Origin: Nonomuraea typhae
GTDB taxonomy: Bacteria > Actinomycetota > Actinomycetes > Streptosporangiales > Streptosporangiaceae
Length of the DNA: 64,000 nucleotides
Reading direction: 5' to 3'
Assembly: GCF_009760925.1 (NCBI RefSeq)
Contig: NZ_VRLV01000003.1
Coordinates: 124,001-188,000 of the forward strand
Positions 46,514-53,441 of this stretch are shown piece after piece. Both the position numbers and the translations under genes were made by a program. Position 1 is the stretch's first letter; the number at the start of each line of letters is the position of its first letter. Below the pieces are notes generated by a model that saw only the letters and a list, made by a program, of their open reading frames with translations, was not told where the DNA came from and searched no databases.

Positions 46514-48868
46514 TCATGCGACTGGAAGGCACCAGTGGGCGCCGGTGGTCCAGCCGAGGAAGCGGCGTCCGGAACCGTCCGGAGTGGTTCCGCCGGCGGC
46601 GAAGCGGCCGCCGGCGATCACGTGGGACAGTCCCTTGACCGCCGGGGCCAGGCGGGCGTCGGGGAGCATCCGGCGAAGGCCGGTCAAGGCCGCCTCCTGC
46701 TGCTGCCGGTCGCAGAAGCTCAGATAGAAGATCGCCTGCCGCCAGCCGTACGCCATGTTCTTGACCATGCGCAGGCTCGGCGCGGACAGGCCCGCGACGA
46801 TCCACGTGAACGTGCGCTCGGCGAGGGCGGGGGCCTGGGCGCGGAGGTCGTCCTCGAGGTGCAGGGTGTGGACCAGGGCGGCCAGGTTGTGGGTGGTCAG
46901 GATCTGGCTCTGCTCCAGGACGGTGCCGTTGGCGGCGACGAAGCCGCGGCTCGTGCCGGTCTGCGCCTCCTTGGCGCGCTCGGCGCACAACGTCGCGAAG
47001 TCCTCGGCGGTGCGTTTCCCCCACCGGCGGCCGCTCTTCCCCGCCGAGGTCCAGGCGCGCTCCTCGGGGAGGTCGTAGTAGCGGGCGTAGAGGGTGCCGG
47101 CCATCGTCCGGCTCGTGATCTCCGCCGCGGTGCGCCACTTGGTGGTGAAGGAGCCCATGAAGATGTCGGCGGCGACCTCCTCCACCAGGGGCATCGGCAG
47201 GCCGGCCCGCTCGGCCAGCGCGCCCAGCTCGCGCAGCAGCGGGTTGGGCAGGATCGTCTGCGGGAACGCGGTCAGCGCCAGCGTCGTCGCCTGTGCCAGC
47301 GTGCGGCGCGCGGTGCGGGCGCCGTCGGGGCTGGGCGCGCGGAACGGCTCCAGCGCGCCGATCCAGGGCAGCTCGTCGAAGCGGACCTGATGCTCCAGGT
47401 TGAGCAGCAGCAGGCTGCGGCGCCGCCGGAACGCGCCGTAGGTCTGGGCGTACAGGCCCGCCAGGTGCTCGTCGCCGAGGTCGGCGGCGACGAGCTGCGC
47501 GGTGATCTGCGGCAGCACCCGGGCCAGCACCTCGCCGGAGGTGATCACACCGCGGGCCACGAGCTCGTCCACGGGCGCCTCCAGGGCGCGGGTGAGCTTG
47601 GCGGCCAGGTGCGGCGGGATCGGGTGGACCGCGCCCGCCTCCTCCGGCAGGGTGTCGGCCGCGAGGGGCTCGACGGCGGGGATGCCGCCCTCCTCCGGGT
47701 AGCGGTCCAGCCTGCCCGCCAGGACTGCGGCCAGCGCCGCGTGGGTCGGCCGGGCCGCGGCCACGGCCTGCGTGCTGCGCAGGGCGGCCCGCCGCTCCGA
47801 GCCGGGGGCGCCGTGACGGGTGACGGTGCCGACCAGCACACGGCGGATCCAGCCGACGTCGCGGCCCGTGAGCGCGCTGCTGTCGTACTCGCAGGCGTCC
47901 AGCGCCCGGCGCAGGCGGGCGAAGTTGCTCTTGGGGTGGGTGTGCGCGGCGGGCGGCGCGTGCGTCTGGCTCGCCTCCCGGTAGTCGGCCAGCCATTCGG
48001 TACGGCGCCGCGTCCAGTCGGCCGGCCACACGCGGCACGGCCAGCCGCCCTCGACGGCCCCGCCGTACGACTGCCCGGGCTGCTCGCCCTCGGCAGCGCC
48101 GCCGTGCGACAACCCAGGCAGCTCGCCCTCGGCAGTGCCGCCGTGCGACAACCCAGGCAGCTCGCCGTCGGCAGCGCCGCCGTGCGACAGCTCAGGCAGT
48201 TCGCCCTCGACGGTGTCGCACCACAGCGCGACCAGCCGGTCGTACAGCGGCAGCCAGACCCGCAGCGTCTCCAGCATCGTCGCGATCCGCGGGTTGACCG
48301 TCACCGCGCGCAGGGCCGCCTTCACCTCCCCCACCGGCGCGAGCCGTACCGTGGCGCCGGAGGGCGCGGGGCTGTCCGTCAGGCGAGGCGTCATCCGCAG
48401 CCGGTGCATGAGCGGCCGCAGGGAGACCACCAGATCGAGGGCGTCGGCGGCGTGCCCGCGGTCGAGCAGCCAGGCGGCCGTCATCAGCGCGGCGTCCTCG
48501 GGAGCGTCGACGCGGTAGCGCCCGGATGCGAGAACCTCCAGGAGTTCGGCCTGGCCCTCGTCGCTGAGGTAGTACAGGTTGAGCTGCTCGCGGTCGCCGA
48601 AGCGCGCGGCCTCGGCCTCGCTCAGCGGCGTTTCCGCCACGTACCGGCCGGTGGCGAAGCCGCCGTGCGCGACCTCGAGCGTCACCCAGGCGGGCGTATC
48701 GGCGACCGGCGTGCGCGAGCCGATCGTCAGCCGGCCGGTCTCCATGCCGTCCAGCACCGCCCGCCACGCCGCCGCCTTGGCCTCGCCCGCGGCGGCCCGG
48801 TTCATCGCGCGCTGGAGCTGCCCGTAGGCGTAGCCCGGACTTGCCGTGCGGCGCGGCTCCTCTGACAC
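46514..48868 (-). CDS. 784-residue protein of unknown family next to tRNA-like genes
   Basis: Cytoplasmic, no signal peptide or membrane helix. I do not recognise a family. Visible: N-terminal QLQRAMNRAAAGEAKAAAWR; a beta-rich AWVTLEVAHGGFATGRYVAE; a region at residues ~219-272 with four 13-residue repeats (consensus ELPGLSHGGAAEG); long helical stretches (ITAQLVAADLGDEHLAGLYA); conserved-looking TTKWRTAAEITSRTMAGTLY, then RWGKRTAEDFATLCAERAKE; and SLRMVKNMAYGWRQAIFYLS near the end. GTG 48868 has SD GGGGGA five bases before and lies 29 bases after tRNA-like element A, on the same strand as both tRNA-like genes and the RNase III gene, so an RNA-related role is suggested by position only. Confidence 0.7.
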   Translation of the reverse strand: MSEEPRRTASPGYAYGQLQRAMNRAAAGEAKAAAWRAVLDGMETGRLTIGSRTPVADTPAWVTLEVAHGGFATGRYVAETPLSEAEAARFGDREQLNLYYLSDEGQAELLEVLASGRYRVDAPEDAALMTAAWLLDRGHAADALDLVVSLRPLMHRLRMTPRLTDSPAPSGATVRLAPVGEVKAALRAVTVNPRIATMLETLRVWLPLYDRLVALWCDTVEGELPELSHGGAADGELPGLSHGGTAEGELPGLSHGGAAEGEQPGQSYGGAVEGGWPCRVWPADWTRRRTEWLADYREASQTHAPPAAHTHPKSNFARLRRALDACEYDSSALTGRDVGWIRRVLVGTVTRHGAPGSERRAALRSTQAVAAARPTHAALAAVLAGRLDRYPEEGGIPAVEPLAADTLPEEAGAVHPIPPHLAAKLTRALEAPVDELVARGVITSGEVLARVLPQITAQLVAADLGDEHLAGLYAQTYGAFRRRRSLLLLNLEHQVRFDELPWIGALEPFRAPSPDGARTARRTLAQATTLALTAFPQTILPNPLLRELGALAERAGLPMPLVEEVAADIFMGSFTTKWRTAAEITSRTMAGTLYARYYDLPEERAWTSAGKSGRRWGKRTAEDFATLCAERAKEAQTGTSRGFVAANGTVLEQSQILTTHNLAALVHTLHLEDDLRAQAPALAERTFTWIVAGLSAPSLRMVKNMAYGWRQAIFYLSFCDRQQQEAALTGLRRMLPDARLAPAVKGLSHVIAGGRFAAGGTTPDGSGRRFLGWTTGAHWCLPVA
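48045..48210 (-). repeat. 39-bp in-frame tandem repeat in the 784-residue protein gene
   Basis: Four units of 39 bp encode 13-residue repeats: ELPELSHGGAADG, ELPGLSHGGTAEG, ELPGLSHGGAAEG, EQPGQSYGGAVEG. Reading frame is kept, and the outer copies have diverged. Copy number could vary between strains. Confidence 0.85.
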
Positions 48869-48897
48869 CGTGGTCCCCCTGACGTCACTCGTGAAGA

Positions 48898-48967
48898 CCT
48901 GAAGGCGAGGATCGAACTCGCGCCCTCCCGGAAGAGCCGGGCGATCTACCCACTGATCTACTTCAGG
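48898..48967 (-). tRNA. tRNA-like element A, cloverleaf with 5-nt anticodon loop
   Basis: Perfect arms: acceptor CCTGAAG/CTTCAGG (7 bp), D stem GATC/GATC around AGTGGGTA, anticodon stem CCCGG/CCGGG (5 bp), variable AGGGC, T stem GCGAG/CTCGC (5 bp) with loop TTCGATC. The anticodon loop is only CTCTT, two bases short; if C32-U33 are kept, the triplet would be CUU (Lys). No CCA is encoded and the base after the acceptor is T. All stems are complementary, so it is not simply decayed, but a normal decoding tRNA is unlikely. Confidence 0.65.
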
Positions 48968-48989
48968 AGAGGCCGGGTCCGGCCGTCGA

Positions 48990-49059
48990 CATGGAGGCGG
49001 GATTCGAACCTGCGCCCTCCCGGTCCCAGCCGGGCGCTCTGCCACTGAGCTACTCCATG
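48990..49059 (-). tRNA. tRNA-like element B, cloverleaf with 6-nt anticodon loop
   Basis: Acceptor CATGGAG/CTCCATG (7 bp), D stem GCTC/GAGC around AGTGGCA, anticodon stem CCCGG/CCGGG (5 bp), variable AGGGC, T arm GCAGG-TTCGAAT-CCCGC with one A-C mismatch. The anticodon loop is CTGGGA, one base short; with C32-U33 the triplet is GGG (Pro). It differs from element A in acceptor and D stems but shares the anticodon stem and the AGGGCGC run that follows. 22 bases upstream of element A, 99 bases after the RNase III stop. Confidence 0.65.
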
Positions 49060-51998: not shown

Positions 51999-53441
51999 TC
52001 ATGAGCCGAATGCTCGCTTAAGGGCGTCCACAAGCTGATCGGGCAGCTCGATCTTCCAGTTGCCGTTCTCCCGGATCAGGCGCCGCCGCTCGCCGGAGAA
52101 CCGCTGCGACTGAGGGCCGCCCGCCCCTCCGGAAATGGTCACCGTACCGCTGAAGGCCACGATCGCCTGAGCCCCCCGCTGCTCGACCACCTTGACGTCG
52201 TCGATGGTGGTCCTGGCGCCGAGCGATCGCAGCTGGTCCTCCCCCGCCTGGCACTTGGCGATGAACGCGGCCCTGGACATGCCCAGTTTCCTCGTCGAGG
52301 CCGAGGTGAGGGCGTCGTAGAGCGGGGTGCAGTCGCCGTTCTCCACCGCGCCGGTGATCCGGCGCAGCGTCGCCTCCAGCGCGGCCTCGTCCTCCGGCGT
52401 CACCCGGGGCCCCGGTCCCCCGCAGCTGGTGGACTGGCGCAGGTCCGCGCACGCGGAGTCGCCGGAACGGAGGGGAGTGTCCTTCTTGCCGGTGAAGCCG
52501 ACCTTGCGCTGGTAGAGCTTGCCGTCGTCGAGGTCGATCAGGGTGAAGCGCTTGACCTTCTTGCCCGCGGTGAAGGTCGCGACCCTTCTCGGGGCGAAGG
52601 AGCTCCAGGCGTCACCCGGGTTGTGCGCATATTTCCTGACGTTGTCGGAGGTGCTTGCGGTGCCTCGCGGCTCGGCCAGCGGATTGCCGCAGTTGCACTT
52701 CACCCGCGGCACCCCGCGCTCGTCGACCAGCACCGCCGTACCGGCCTGAAGGACGGCCTGGTACGGCGTCGCCTCGCCGTCCTTGTAGTCGTAGTTGGTG
52801 ACGCGGGCGTCCATCCGCAGGCGTACCGGCGTCAGCCTGGCGAGGTAGGACCGGATCTGGCCGGGCTGGATCCGGTGCGTCGCCGCCCATGTCCGGGCCT
52901 GCGCCGCGTGCCGGGGATCGGTCAGGTACTTGACCAGCTTTCCCACGTCGCAGGCCACGCCGTGCTTGGTGGTGGCGTACGCGCCGTCGCGGCTGCCGTC
53001 GACGTTCCCTCCGGCCTCCGGGGCGCCGTCGATGAAGGCGGGCCGCACGTCACGGCCGGGGGTGTGGGGGTCGGCGGGCTCGGAGACGAAGGCGTCCTCC
53101 TGCATCGTGTCCACCGGGATGAGCGAGACGGCCTGCTGGATGGTCAGGAAGACCAGCGTGCCGGCGGCGATCGCGCCGGCGAGCGTCGCCGCCACGAAGG
53201 CGATGGCGATCTTGATGCGCCGATCGCCGGACTCGGGCGGCGGGGCCTCCGCCTGCCGCGCGGGCGCTATCGACCGGATCGCGACGCCCAGCGCGACCAG
53301 CCCGGTGAGGGCGCTGATCACGCTGGCCAGCTGGTCGGCCTTGTCGAGGCCGACGTAGGTGATGACCGCGGCCAGCGCCACGACAGCGAGGCTGCACAGC
53401 AGGAGCGCGATCCAGATCCATCGTCTGAACTGGAGAGCCAC
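51999..53441 (-). CDS. DUF6777-like membrane-anchored protein
   Basis: 480 residues. Three N-terminal membrane helices (WIALLLCSLAVVALAAVITY, a second around LTGLVALGVAIRSI, a third IAFVAATLAGAIAAGTLVFL), then an extracytoplasmic domain in which TPYQAVLQAGTAVLVDERGV and VKCNCGNPLAEP match the actinobacterial DUF6777 family as I remember it. The C-terminal ~110 residues (ATLRRITGAVENGDCTPLYD ... ENGNWKIELPDQLV) look like an NTF2-like/lipoprotein domain. Stands alone; function unknown. Confidence 0.7.
   Translation of the reverse strand: MALQFRRWIWIALLLCSLAVVALAAVITYVGLDKADQLASVISALTGLVALGVAIRSIAPARQAEAPPPESGDRRIKIAIAFVAATLAGAIAAGTLVFLTIQQAVSLIPVDTMQEDAFVSEPADPHTPGRDVRPAFIDGAPEAGGNVDGSRDGAYATTKHGVACDVGKLVKYLTDPRHAAQARTWAATHRIQPGQIRSYLARLTPVRLRMDARVTNYDYKDGEATPYQAVLQAGTAVLVDERGVPRVKCNCGNPLAEPRGTASTSDNVRKYAHNPGDAWSSFAPRRVATFTAGKKVKRFTLIDLDDGKLYQRKVGFTGKKDTPLRSGDSACADLRQSTSCGGPGPRVTPEDEAALEATLRRITGAVENGDCTPLYDALTSASTRKLGMSRAAFIAKCQAGEDQLRSLGARTTIDDVKVVEQRGAQAIVAFSGTVTISGGAGGPQSQRFSGERRRLIRENGNWKIELPDQLVDALKRAFGS

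Follow-up and report, generated by a model that had tools for sequence, protein, structure and literature searches.

Odd-loop tRNA-like RNAs beside an orphan gene in Nonomuraea typhae: candidate non-decoding RNA partners of its protein

Two tRNA-like RNAs upstream of an orphan gene

The window analyzed here is a stretch of 64,000 nucleotides (nt) from the actinomycete Nonomuraea typhae (RefSeq assembly GCF_009760925.1, contig NZ_VRLV01000003.1, positions 124,001 to 188,000 of the forward strand), numbered from its first letter. Its minus strand carries two tandem tRNA-like RNAs, element B (49059-48988) and then element A (48967-48896). Directly 3' of the pair lies an intact open reading frame for a 783-residue orphan protein that we call P783 (46514-48865). 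A 30-nt spacer (48866-48895, minus strand) separates A from the P783 start codon, a GTG that stands 29 nt past the discriminator base of A and has a Shine-Dalgarno-like AGGGGG upstream of it, identified by eye.

A preliminary description of this DNA, made from its letters alone, had placed two tandem cloverleaf RNAs here, and both programs that we applied bear this out. ARAGORN names A 'tRNA-Arg(tct)' and B 'tRNA-???(gg)'. RF00005, the only Rfam family to match the window at its gathering score (29 for this family), scores them at 57.2 and 58.3 bits, respectively. R2, a covariance model of P783-type RNAs whose 18 rows include A and B, scores them at 78.4 and 85.6 bits. The structural details of the description also held: the stems of A (7/4/5/5) form every pair, B has a single mismatch, an A.C pair in the T stem, and both share the anticodon stem CCCGG/CCGGG. 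This stem closes a loop of 5 nt in A (CTCTT, minus-strand sequence, 48932-48936) and 6 nt in B (CTGGGA, 49024-49029), in place of the 7 nt of a canonical tRNA. ARAGORN parses A with a 4-bp anticodon stem and a 7-nt loop; we read it as 5 bp and 5 nt because its orthologue in the nearest cassette, from a same-genus genome (G346), reads CCCGG-CTCTTAC-CCGGG. Both elements have U73 and no encoded CCA, with CTT coming next in A and CGA in B.

The genome contains 62 other tRNA genes under 44 names by ARAGORN, including those for Pro (GGG, CGG and TGG), Lys (CTT and TTT) and Arg (TCT). These already serve all 20 amino acids; A and B are supernumerary. A 7-nt anticodon loop is read in all 62, although this is a weak control, as the program forced 7 nt on A too.

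Linkage of the RNAs to two orphan protein families

A class-level search of 296 genomes gave P783 matches in 25, that of N. typhae included. Five of these (G059, G128, G221, G246 and G253) were left out because they match only within a repetitive insert of the protein from G007. One or two R2-type RNAs lie just 5' of the gene in all 19 class-level loci, and adding the window, G007 and G346 brings the count to 22 of 22 genome loci. Plasmid records with P783 have the RNA in 6 of 6 cases, among them distant Curtobacterium relatives (30-32% identity) and an Embleya record with three RNA copies. Within the genus, only 3 of 54 genomes carry P783, that of N. typhae included, so the cassette is sporadic. 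The window and G346 proteins are 73.6% identical, and their genes differ at 0.187, 0.144 and 0.327 of first, second and third codon positions. Among viral contigs, 19 pattern matches contained no relative of P783. Two loci have unusual versions of the gene: in one (L165, G230:C45) the tRNA-like RNA is retained and P783 matches at both ends only, as if internally deleted, and the G007 protein (L037:3966-7148) has two long low-complexity repeat inserts absent from the window protein.

Searching 59 related genomes with the A/B pair led to same-genus tRNA-like genes beside a different protein, P472. In G005, G013, G019 (a pair each) and G026 (a single RNA), they lie 3' of a gene for about 470 residues and have loops of 7 and 8 nt. 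P472 is an orphan family of about 450-470 residues. Its profile found 111 relatives in a collection of 84,980 species, and the counts below use the best 80 of the 111. The hosts are Streptomyces and other Actinomycetota, Planctomycetota, Acidobacteriota, the Bacteroidota Hymenobacter, Taibaiella and Saprospiraceae, and the Proteobacteria Andreprevotia and Roseomonas, which, going by the organism names, we take to be five phyla. Identity across phyla is 39-50%. A tRNA-like gene stands beside P472 in 79 of the 80 genome loci (ARAGORN, confirmed by covariance model), and in the one miss (L122) the contig ends 99 nt past the match. There are two RNAs at 36 of the 79 loci and one at 43. All but one of these 115 RNAs (114) are on the 3' side of the gene, with a median distance to the stop codon of 67 nt.

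Because the loci of both families were found by protein searches alone, the linkage to RNA does not follow from how they were selected. The genome has about 64 tRNA genes in 11.4 Mb, a density at which, by rough estimate, fewer than 1% of random genes would have a tRNA beside them. RNAs of this design turn up next to these same proteins in dozens of genomes, and ARAGORN reads 7-nt loops in all 62 other tRNAs of N. typhae; the odd loops are therefore not due to chance. This constant protein neighbor is the main point of the locus, and the preliminary description had missed it.

The P472 cassette also occurs on mobile DNA. Its RNA is present in 7 of 7 plasmid records with P472, or 13 of 13 for the two families together. 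Of 14 IMG/VR contigs with P472, which that collection labels viral, 13 pass our criterion for carrying the RNA, and the fourteenth (L174) has a 37-bit match with the same anticodon-arm rim (see below) and a 9-nt loop. The RNA is 5' of the gene in some of these contigs (L170, L175 and L178) and 3' in others (L166-L168), and several hold many ordinary tRNA genes nearby. L166-L168 are low-GC contigs in which P472 sits amid ordinary tRNA genes, and the neighbor set of the viral contigs includes a gene resembling tRNAHis guanylyltransferase. A search of a phage collection found no P472.

Beyond the RNA, we found no conserved neighbor of P472, either in 101 of the 125 proteins flanking 32 loci (169 Pfam families, none in more than 3) or in 44 of the 68 proteins of 9 viral contigs. 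Each PADLOC defense family, among the first 25 of 35, occurs in at most 2 of the 101 flanking proteins. In Acanthopleuribacter (L093), one tRNA-like RNA lies on either side of P472, and a sigma54-activator gene, the only one found by motif in the neighbor set and probably an RtcR-type PADLOC match, lies about 2.7 kb downstream. In four Streptomyces plasmid records (L229, L231, L240 and L241), three of which represent one S. globisporus replicon type, the gene after the P472 RNA has a YrhB domain. At many Streptomyces P472 loci, inspection by eye revealed a recurring TTGACC-17 nt-AATGAT in the spacer before the RNA, which suggests a promoter of the RNA's own.

At the genome loci, the two families place nearly all their RNAs on opposite sides of the gene. 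In 11 of 20 P783 loci, an in-frame ATG follows the discriminator base by only 2-4 nt. At these loci, the 3' cut that matures the RNA would, we infer, also release a nearly leaderless P783 message. The thrS gene has a tRNA-like operator that controls its own translation, and by this model the P783-type structure could be chiefly a cis-acting 5' leader to which P783 binds for translational autoregulation. The tight spacing, which leaves no room for a free Shine-Dalgarno site, agrees with such a leader, but the window start codon stands well clear of A with a Shine-Dalgarno-like site of its own, some cassettes have two RNAs, and P472-type RNAs lie almost always at the 3' side. We give the leader model a very slim chance.

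Two other genes lie near the cassette in the window. Directly upstream of B is the second RNase III gene of the genome (49159-50097, minus strand), which encodes RNase III and dsRNA-binding domains with an N-terminal extension and is 72% identical to the other copy, on contig C54. A DUF6777-domain protein is encoded at 51999-53441 (minus strand).

A conserved body and a variable anticodon loop

To judge constraint on the RNAs, we compared their stems across each family. In the alignment of 61 P472-type RNAs, standard pairs fill 98.8% of pair cells and 13 of 21 pairs show double changes; the covariation score is 0.568, compared to 0.168 when shuffled and at most 0.135 in slid controls. The 18 P783-type RNAs, A and B included, are 99.2% paired with double changes in 9 of 21 pairs, and score 0.391 compared to 0.115 when shuffled and at most 0.060 in slid controls. 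Kinship raises these numbers, though it does so in the slid controls as well. We read these alignments as evidence that the RNAs are under selection, with all four arms of the cloverleaf held by compensatory change.

This pattern bears on the simplest explanation, that A and B are decaying tRNA genes beside an unrelated gene. In its favor, the nearest relatives have 7-nt loops, B has its T-stem mismatch, and at two loci (L042, 3056-3125, and L108, 6511-6580) the second RNA has an internal deletion into the variable region, a case of local decay beside an intact first copy. Against it are the covariation, which includes a paired D-stem difference between the two B elements (A-U in the window, C-G in G346), the near-invariant bodies and the constant linkage to proteins. 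Rather than the loss of pairing and constraint expected of a pseudogene, the pair shows one mismatch in all. Decay is thus largely refuted, in agreement with the preliminary description, which had argued from the intact stems that these are not randomly decaying tRNAs.

Within the anticodon arm, the two loop-proximal pairs (G-C, G-C) are invariant in both alignments. The invariance is partly built into the P472-type alignment (A8), since its RNAs passed a GGCT/GGCC motif filter. An unfiltered recount bears it out: GG before and CC after the loop occur in 114 of 114 ARAGORN hits beside P472, compared to 7 of the 62 ordinary tRNAs of this genome. The elbow differs between subsets of the P783-type RNAs. 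In 21 of 32 the T-loop has GGC instead of TTC, and the resulting loss of T54-T55 rules out T54/Psi55 modification in those RNAs. By the pattern used, the D-loop GG is absent in 19 of the 21 GGC-type RNAs and kept in all 11 TTC-type RNAs. From these sequences the elbow appears to have changed in concert; the GGC T-loop may be one ancestral switch, and we do not count it as independent events.

The anticodon loop behaves quite differently. For P472, we hand-picked 150 RNAs from 184 hits (at least 52 bits, beside the gene and judged not to be ordinary tRNAs). This left out several near hits: L169:6491, with 60.8 bits, the rim and a 7-nt loop, and also L177:6454 and 6535, L166:4799 and 4876, L174:6400, L093:6525 and L067:6211 (minus). 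The loops span 4, 5, 6, 7, 8 and 9 nt in 1, 1, 9, 50, 70 and 19 RNAs, respectively, so that 100 of the 150 depart from 7 nt, and there are 80 distinct sequences. The first two positions are nevertheless fixed, with C32 in 150 and U33 in 149. Our parser accepted only RNAs with GG and CC at the rim and left 1 of 24 P783-type RNAs unparsed; the other 23 have loops of 5 (1), 6 (5) or 7 nt (17).

We then asked how fast the loop changes relative to its surroundings, using 21 P472 cassettes from Streptomyces and Kitasatospora (210 pairs; 3 of 24 were left out, two for broken genes and one for a long spacer). The p-distance is 0.037 for the RNA body and 0.004 for its unpaired part. From its fourth nucleotide on, the loop reaches 0.376, compared to 0.388 for the upstream spacer. 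Drift at the pace of the spacer is what would be expected if the loop had no codon to match. In these 21 copies the anticodon is not conserved with the body as it would be in a canonical tRNA, and the comparison points to a loop that is unconstrained and not used for decoding.

The same data bear on two alternatives. One is that these are unusual but true decoding tRNAs, whether quadruplet-reading, frameshifting or suppressor, that help to express special genes. The 8-nt loops of nearly half the P472-type RNAs are those of +1 frameshift suppressors, C32 and U33 are conserved, and some of the RNAs are read with a CTA anticodon. Yet loops of 4-6 nt exist, those of A and B among them, T54-T55 is missing from most P783-type RNAs, and near-identical bodies carry many anticodons, leaving no amino-acid identity that could be matched to a codon. 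Decoding is thus very improbable.

The second alternative holds that the RNAs are bait for anticodon nucleases of phages, hosts or rivals, with the protein detecting or following cleavage of the bait. A variable loop on a frozen body is what bait might look like, and the RNAs are found in viral contigs, in some beside ordinary tRNA genes. Excerpts of a published study report phage tRNAs whose altered anticodon loops evade nucleases (PMC10264068), which we also count in favor. However, the loop does not outpace the spacer (it exceeds it in 92 of 210 pairs, which gives no indication of positive selection), a 7-nt substrate would be poorly mimicked by loops of 4-6 nt, and the flanking proteins described above form no consistent defense neighborhood. 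We therefore regard bait as quite unlikely.

Near relatives bear on the short loops of the window. Both loops in G346 have 7 nt (CTCGGGA in B, CTCTTAC in A), as does the single element of G007 (CTCGGGT). Relative to G346, the window loop is shorter by one base in B and two in A, and the bodies are nearly unchanged. The loop of B, CTGGGA, also occurs unchanged at two P783 loci that are more distant (G152 and G212), so more than one change in loop length must have taken place, and either shortening in the window or lengthening in relatives could account for the difference. The short loops of the window are probably length changes in a tolerant loop of an otherwise maintained cassette.

These comparisons recast the preliminary description, which saw kept stems and short loops, as if selected not to decode. 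That idea survives insofar as a free loop on a frozen body is not built for a fixed codon; selection for shortness does not, as loop length ranges over 4-9 nt in P472-linked RNAs and is 7 nt in the closest P783 cassettes. The description had named normal 7-nt loops in relatives as the sign of local decay, and G346 and G007 literally have them; it had also looked to compensatory stem evolution as support, and this is clearly present. As for the roles it listed, tRNA mimic fits best, and a nuclease decoy, discussed above as bait, is a live though less likely rival. A frameshifting tRNA, for which the loop should have 8 nt, is not favored by loops of 5 and 6 nt, nor is an aminoacyl donor favored.

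A candidate RNA-protein particle

Neither protein is recognizable from its sequence. At E≤1, P783 has no match in Pfam, NCBIfam or PADLOC; among PDB sequences its family profile finds nothing at E≤1, and a single-sequence search returns only matches of E≥0.14. For 38 P472 members, Pfam returns weak rows only, the best being DinB_2 (5.8e-4, 2 members) and TPR_17 (0.0072, 3 members), and the P472 profile gives nothing convincing among PDB sequences (one row, E 0.54). A common origin of the two proteins was considered, and hhalign finds nothing to indicate one.

A structural model of P472 from 38 sequences is nearly all helical, with a predicted local distance difference test (pLDDT) score of 91.6 and a predicted template modeling (pTM) score of 0.89; an earlier model from 7 sequences had a pLDDT of 65.2. 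Neither model matches a PDB fold at E≤0.001. We looked for a known fold and rejected the candidates, as the best VIA Z scores, 8.0 and 6.7 for the two models, are below chance level for helical models. Two Bacillus cereus entries, 3d19 and 3dby, appear at Z 6.7, one for each model and over roughly the same stretch. Ro60 is not among the fold matches listed for the P472 models, a listing that does not exclude the TROVE fold. Among predicted viral structures, P472 matches proteins of Edafosvirus (E 2.7e-14) and Yasminevirus (E 1.3e-13) with template modeling scores of 0.67-0.68 by query length and 18% identity; we take both to be giant viruses.

With some confidence, we favor the reading that A and B derive from tRNAs but do not decode, and instead act as resident RNA partners of P783. 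Building on the gene linkage, the preserved fold and the relaxed anticodon, we propose that the two RNAs would be expressed together with the cassette, have their ends trimmed by the ordinary tRNA-maturation enzymes and fold into the L-shape of tRNA. P783 would then bind the RNA at its conserved body and at the anticodon-arm rim that stays fixed (GGCU...CC), and the loop, left without a codon to read, would be free to vary. On this reading the pair would not be broken tRNAs but parts of an RNA-protein particle new to the literature.

For how such a particle might work, Ro60 with its Y RNAs offers what seems the closest working analogue. In rsr-yrlBA, as in the cassette, the protein gene (Ro60, or Rsr) adjoins one or two small RNAs, YrlA and YrlB, a likeness that supports our reading. 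Excerpts of two papers state that YrlA has a tRNA-like domain and that Ro60 and Y RNA also occur in a small subset of jumbo phages (PMC7824862, PMC7790460); one of them suggests that this domain may inhibit an anticodon nuclease (PMC7790460). The P783 and P472 cassettes are likewise sporadic and, for P472, found in large viral contigs. By analogy, the tRNA mimic may occupy or gate the RNA-binding surface of the protein, which might thereby handle or sense tRNA, perhaps damaged, or other structured RNA. This Ro60-like role, as opposed to bait or antitoxin, is the least certain part of the proposal, and we hold it only tentatively. The cassette is not itself a Ro60 system: the Pfam rows covered show no TROVE domain for either protein, and its RNA is not a Y RNA but a full cloverleaf of four arms, the anticodon arm included. 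Unlike rsr-yrlBA-rtcBA, it also has no rtcBA. The YrlA model scores 27.3 bits (gathering score 69) at L042, the only place where we saw it.

Several observations weigh against the reading of A and B as RNA partners of P783. Energy folding does not single out the cloverleaf (z of -1.02 for A and -0.15 for B), and the minimum-energy folds of both differ from it; since thermodynamics gives no support, the fold rests on covariation. Even there, further pair types in the P783-type alignment do not rise above shuffles, 121 of 500 of which reach the count. A scan for promoters and terminators near A and B found neither, and no sigma-70-like promoter in particular. Loops of 7 nt are common (a third of the P472-type and 17 of 23 P783-type RNAs), so some copies might decode, and the cassette RNAs share a conserved U33 with ordinary tRNAs (present in 61 of 62 in this genome). 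RNase III was considered as a part of the cassette and rejected, as we found no such gene next to the RNAs and P783 in G007, G346 or the 19 class-level loci. The TROVE domain is absent from the Pfam rows at E≤1 of the window P783 (0 families) and of 18 P783 members (5 families), and from 25 of the 26 Pfam families returned at that threshold for 38 P472 members. Finally, as P783 and P472 are not detectably related, a single mechanism for both is an assumption.

A further alternative is that the RNAs are antitoxins: P783 and P472 would be toxins acting on tRNA or other RNA, and the tRNA mimic an inhibiting pseudo-substrate, as in type III toxin-antitoxin systems. Like systems of the ToxIN type, the cassette is mobile and sporadic, joins a protein gene to an adjoining structured RNA, occurs on chromosomes, plasmids and viral contigs without conserved neighbors, and uses one RNA design with two unrelated proteins. 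P783-type copies lie 5' of the gene, as the RNAs of type III systems do. Against this, P783 has no match to a known type III toxin family (ToxN/AbiQ and others) in PADLOC or Pfam, and P472, scanned in Pfam only, has none there. The RNA is a tRNA cloverleaf and not, as in the type III systems, a set of short pseudoknot repeats, and at the P472 genome loci it lies 3' of the gene for 114 of 115 hits. The P472 proteins are 39-50% identical across phyla while the loops vary even between close relatives, so that loop and protein show no co-evolution. On balance, an antitoxin role is unlikely.

Other odd tRNA-like genes resemble the cassette only in part. Supernumerary phage tRNA genes and tRNA array units likewise add tRNA-like genes to mobile or viral DNA, but here one to three copies adjoin a specific protein gene and have non-canonical, drifting anticodon loops. 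Allo-tRNAs and other unusual cloverleaf tRNAs also bring non-standard architecture to bacterial genomes, but the cassette RNAs keep normal stem lengths and depart only in the anticodon loop and, in some, the elbow. Titles and abstract openings in a literature search that lay outside most subscription papers yielded no description of such a cassette.

If our reading of A and B as resident RNA partners is correct, its reach may be wide. It is possible, though we would put it at somewhat less than even, that they belong to a widespread class of non-decoding tRNA mimics with a hypervariable loop that serves as the RNA subunit of two unrelated orphan families, in at least five phyla, plasmids and large viral contigs and, by predicted fold for one family, giant viruses. 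Such a class would form a new kind of ribonucleoprotein, whose task would be to monitor or protect the tRNA pool when cells and their parasites are in conflict. tRNA genes with a wrong loop are usually dismissed as pseudogenes or mis-annotation; here they mark a conserved two-part cassette. The signature of an orphan protein beside a cloverleaf with a GGCU/CC rim and a free loop can be used to search for more. The cassette would thus offer a testable case of a tRNA that has left translation to become the partner of a protein, sporadic in bacteria, plasmids and viral contigs.
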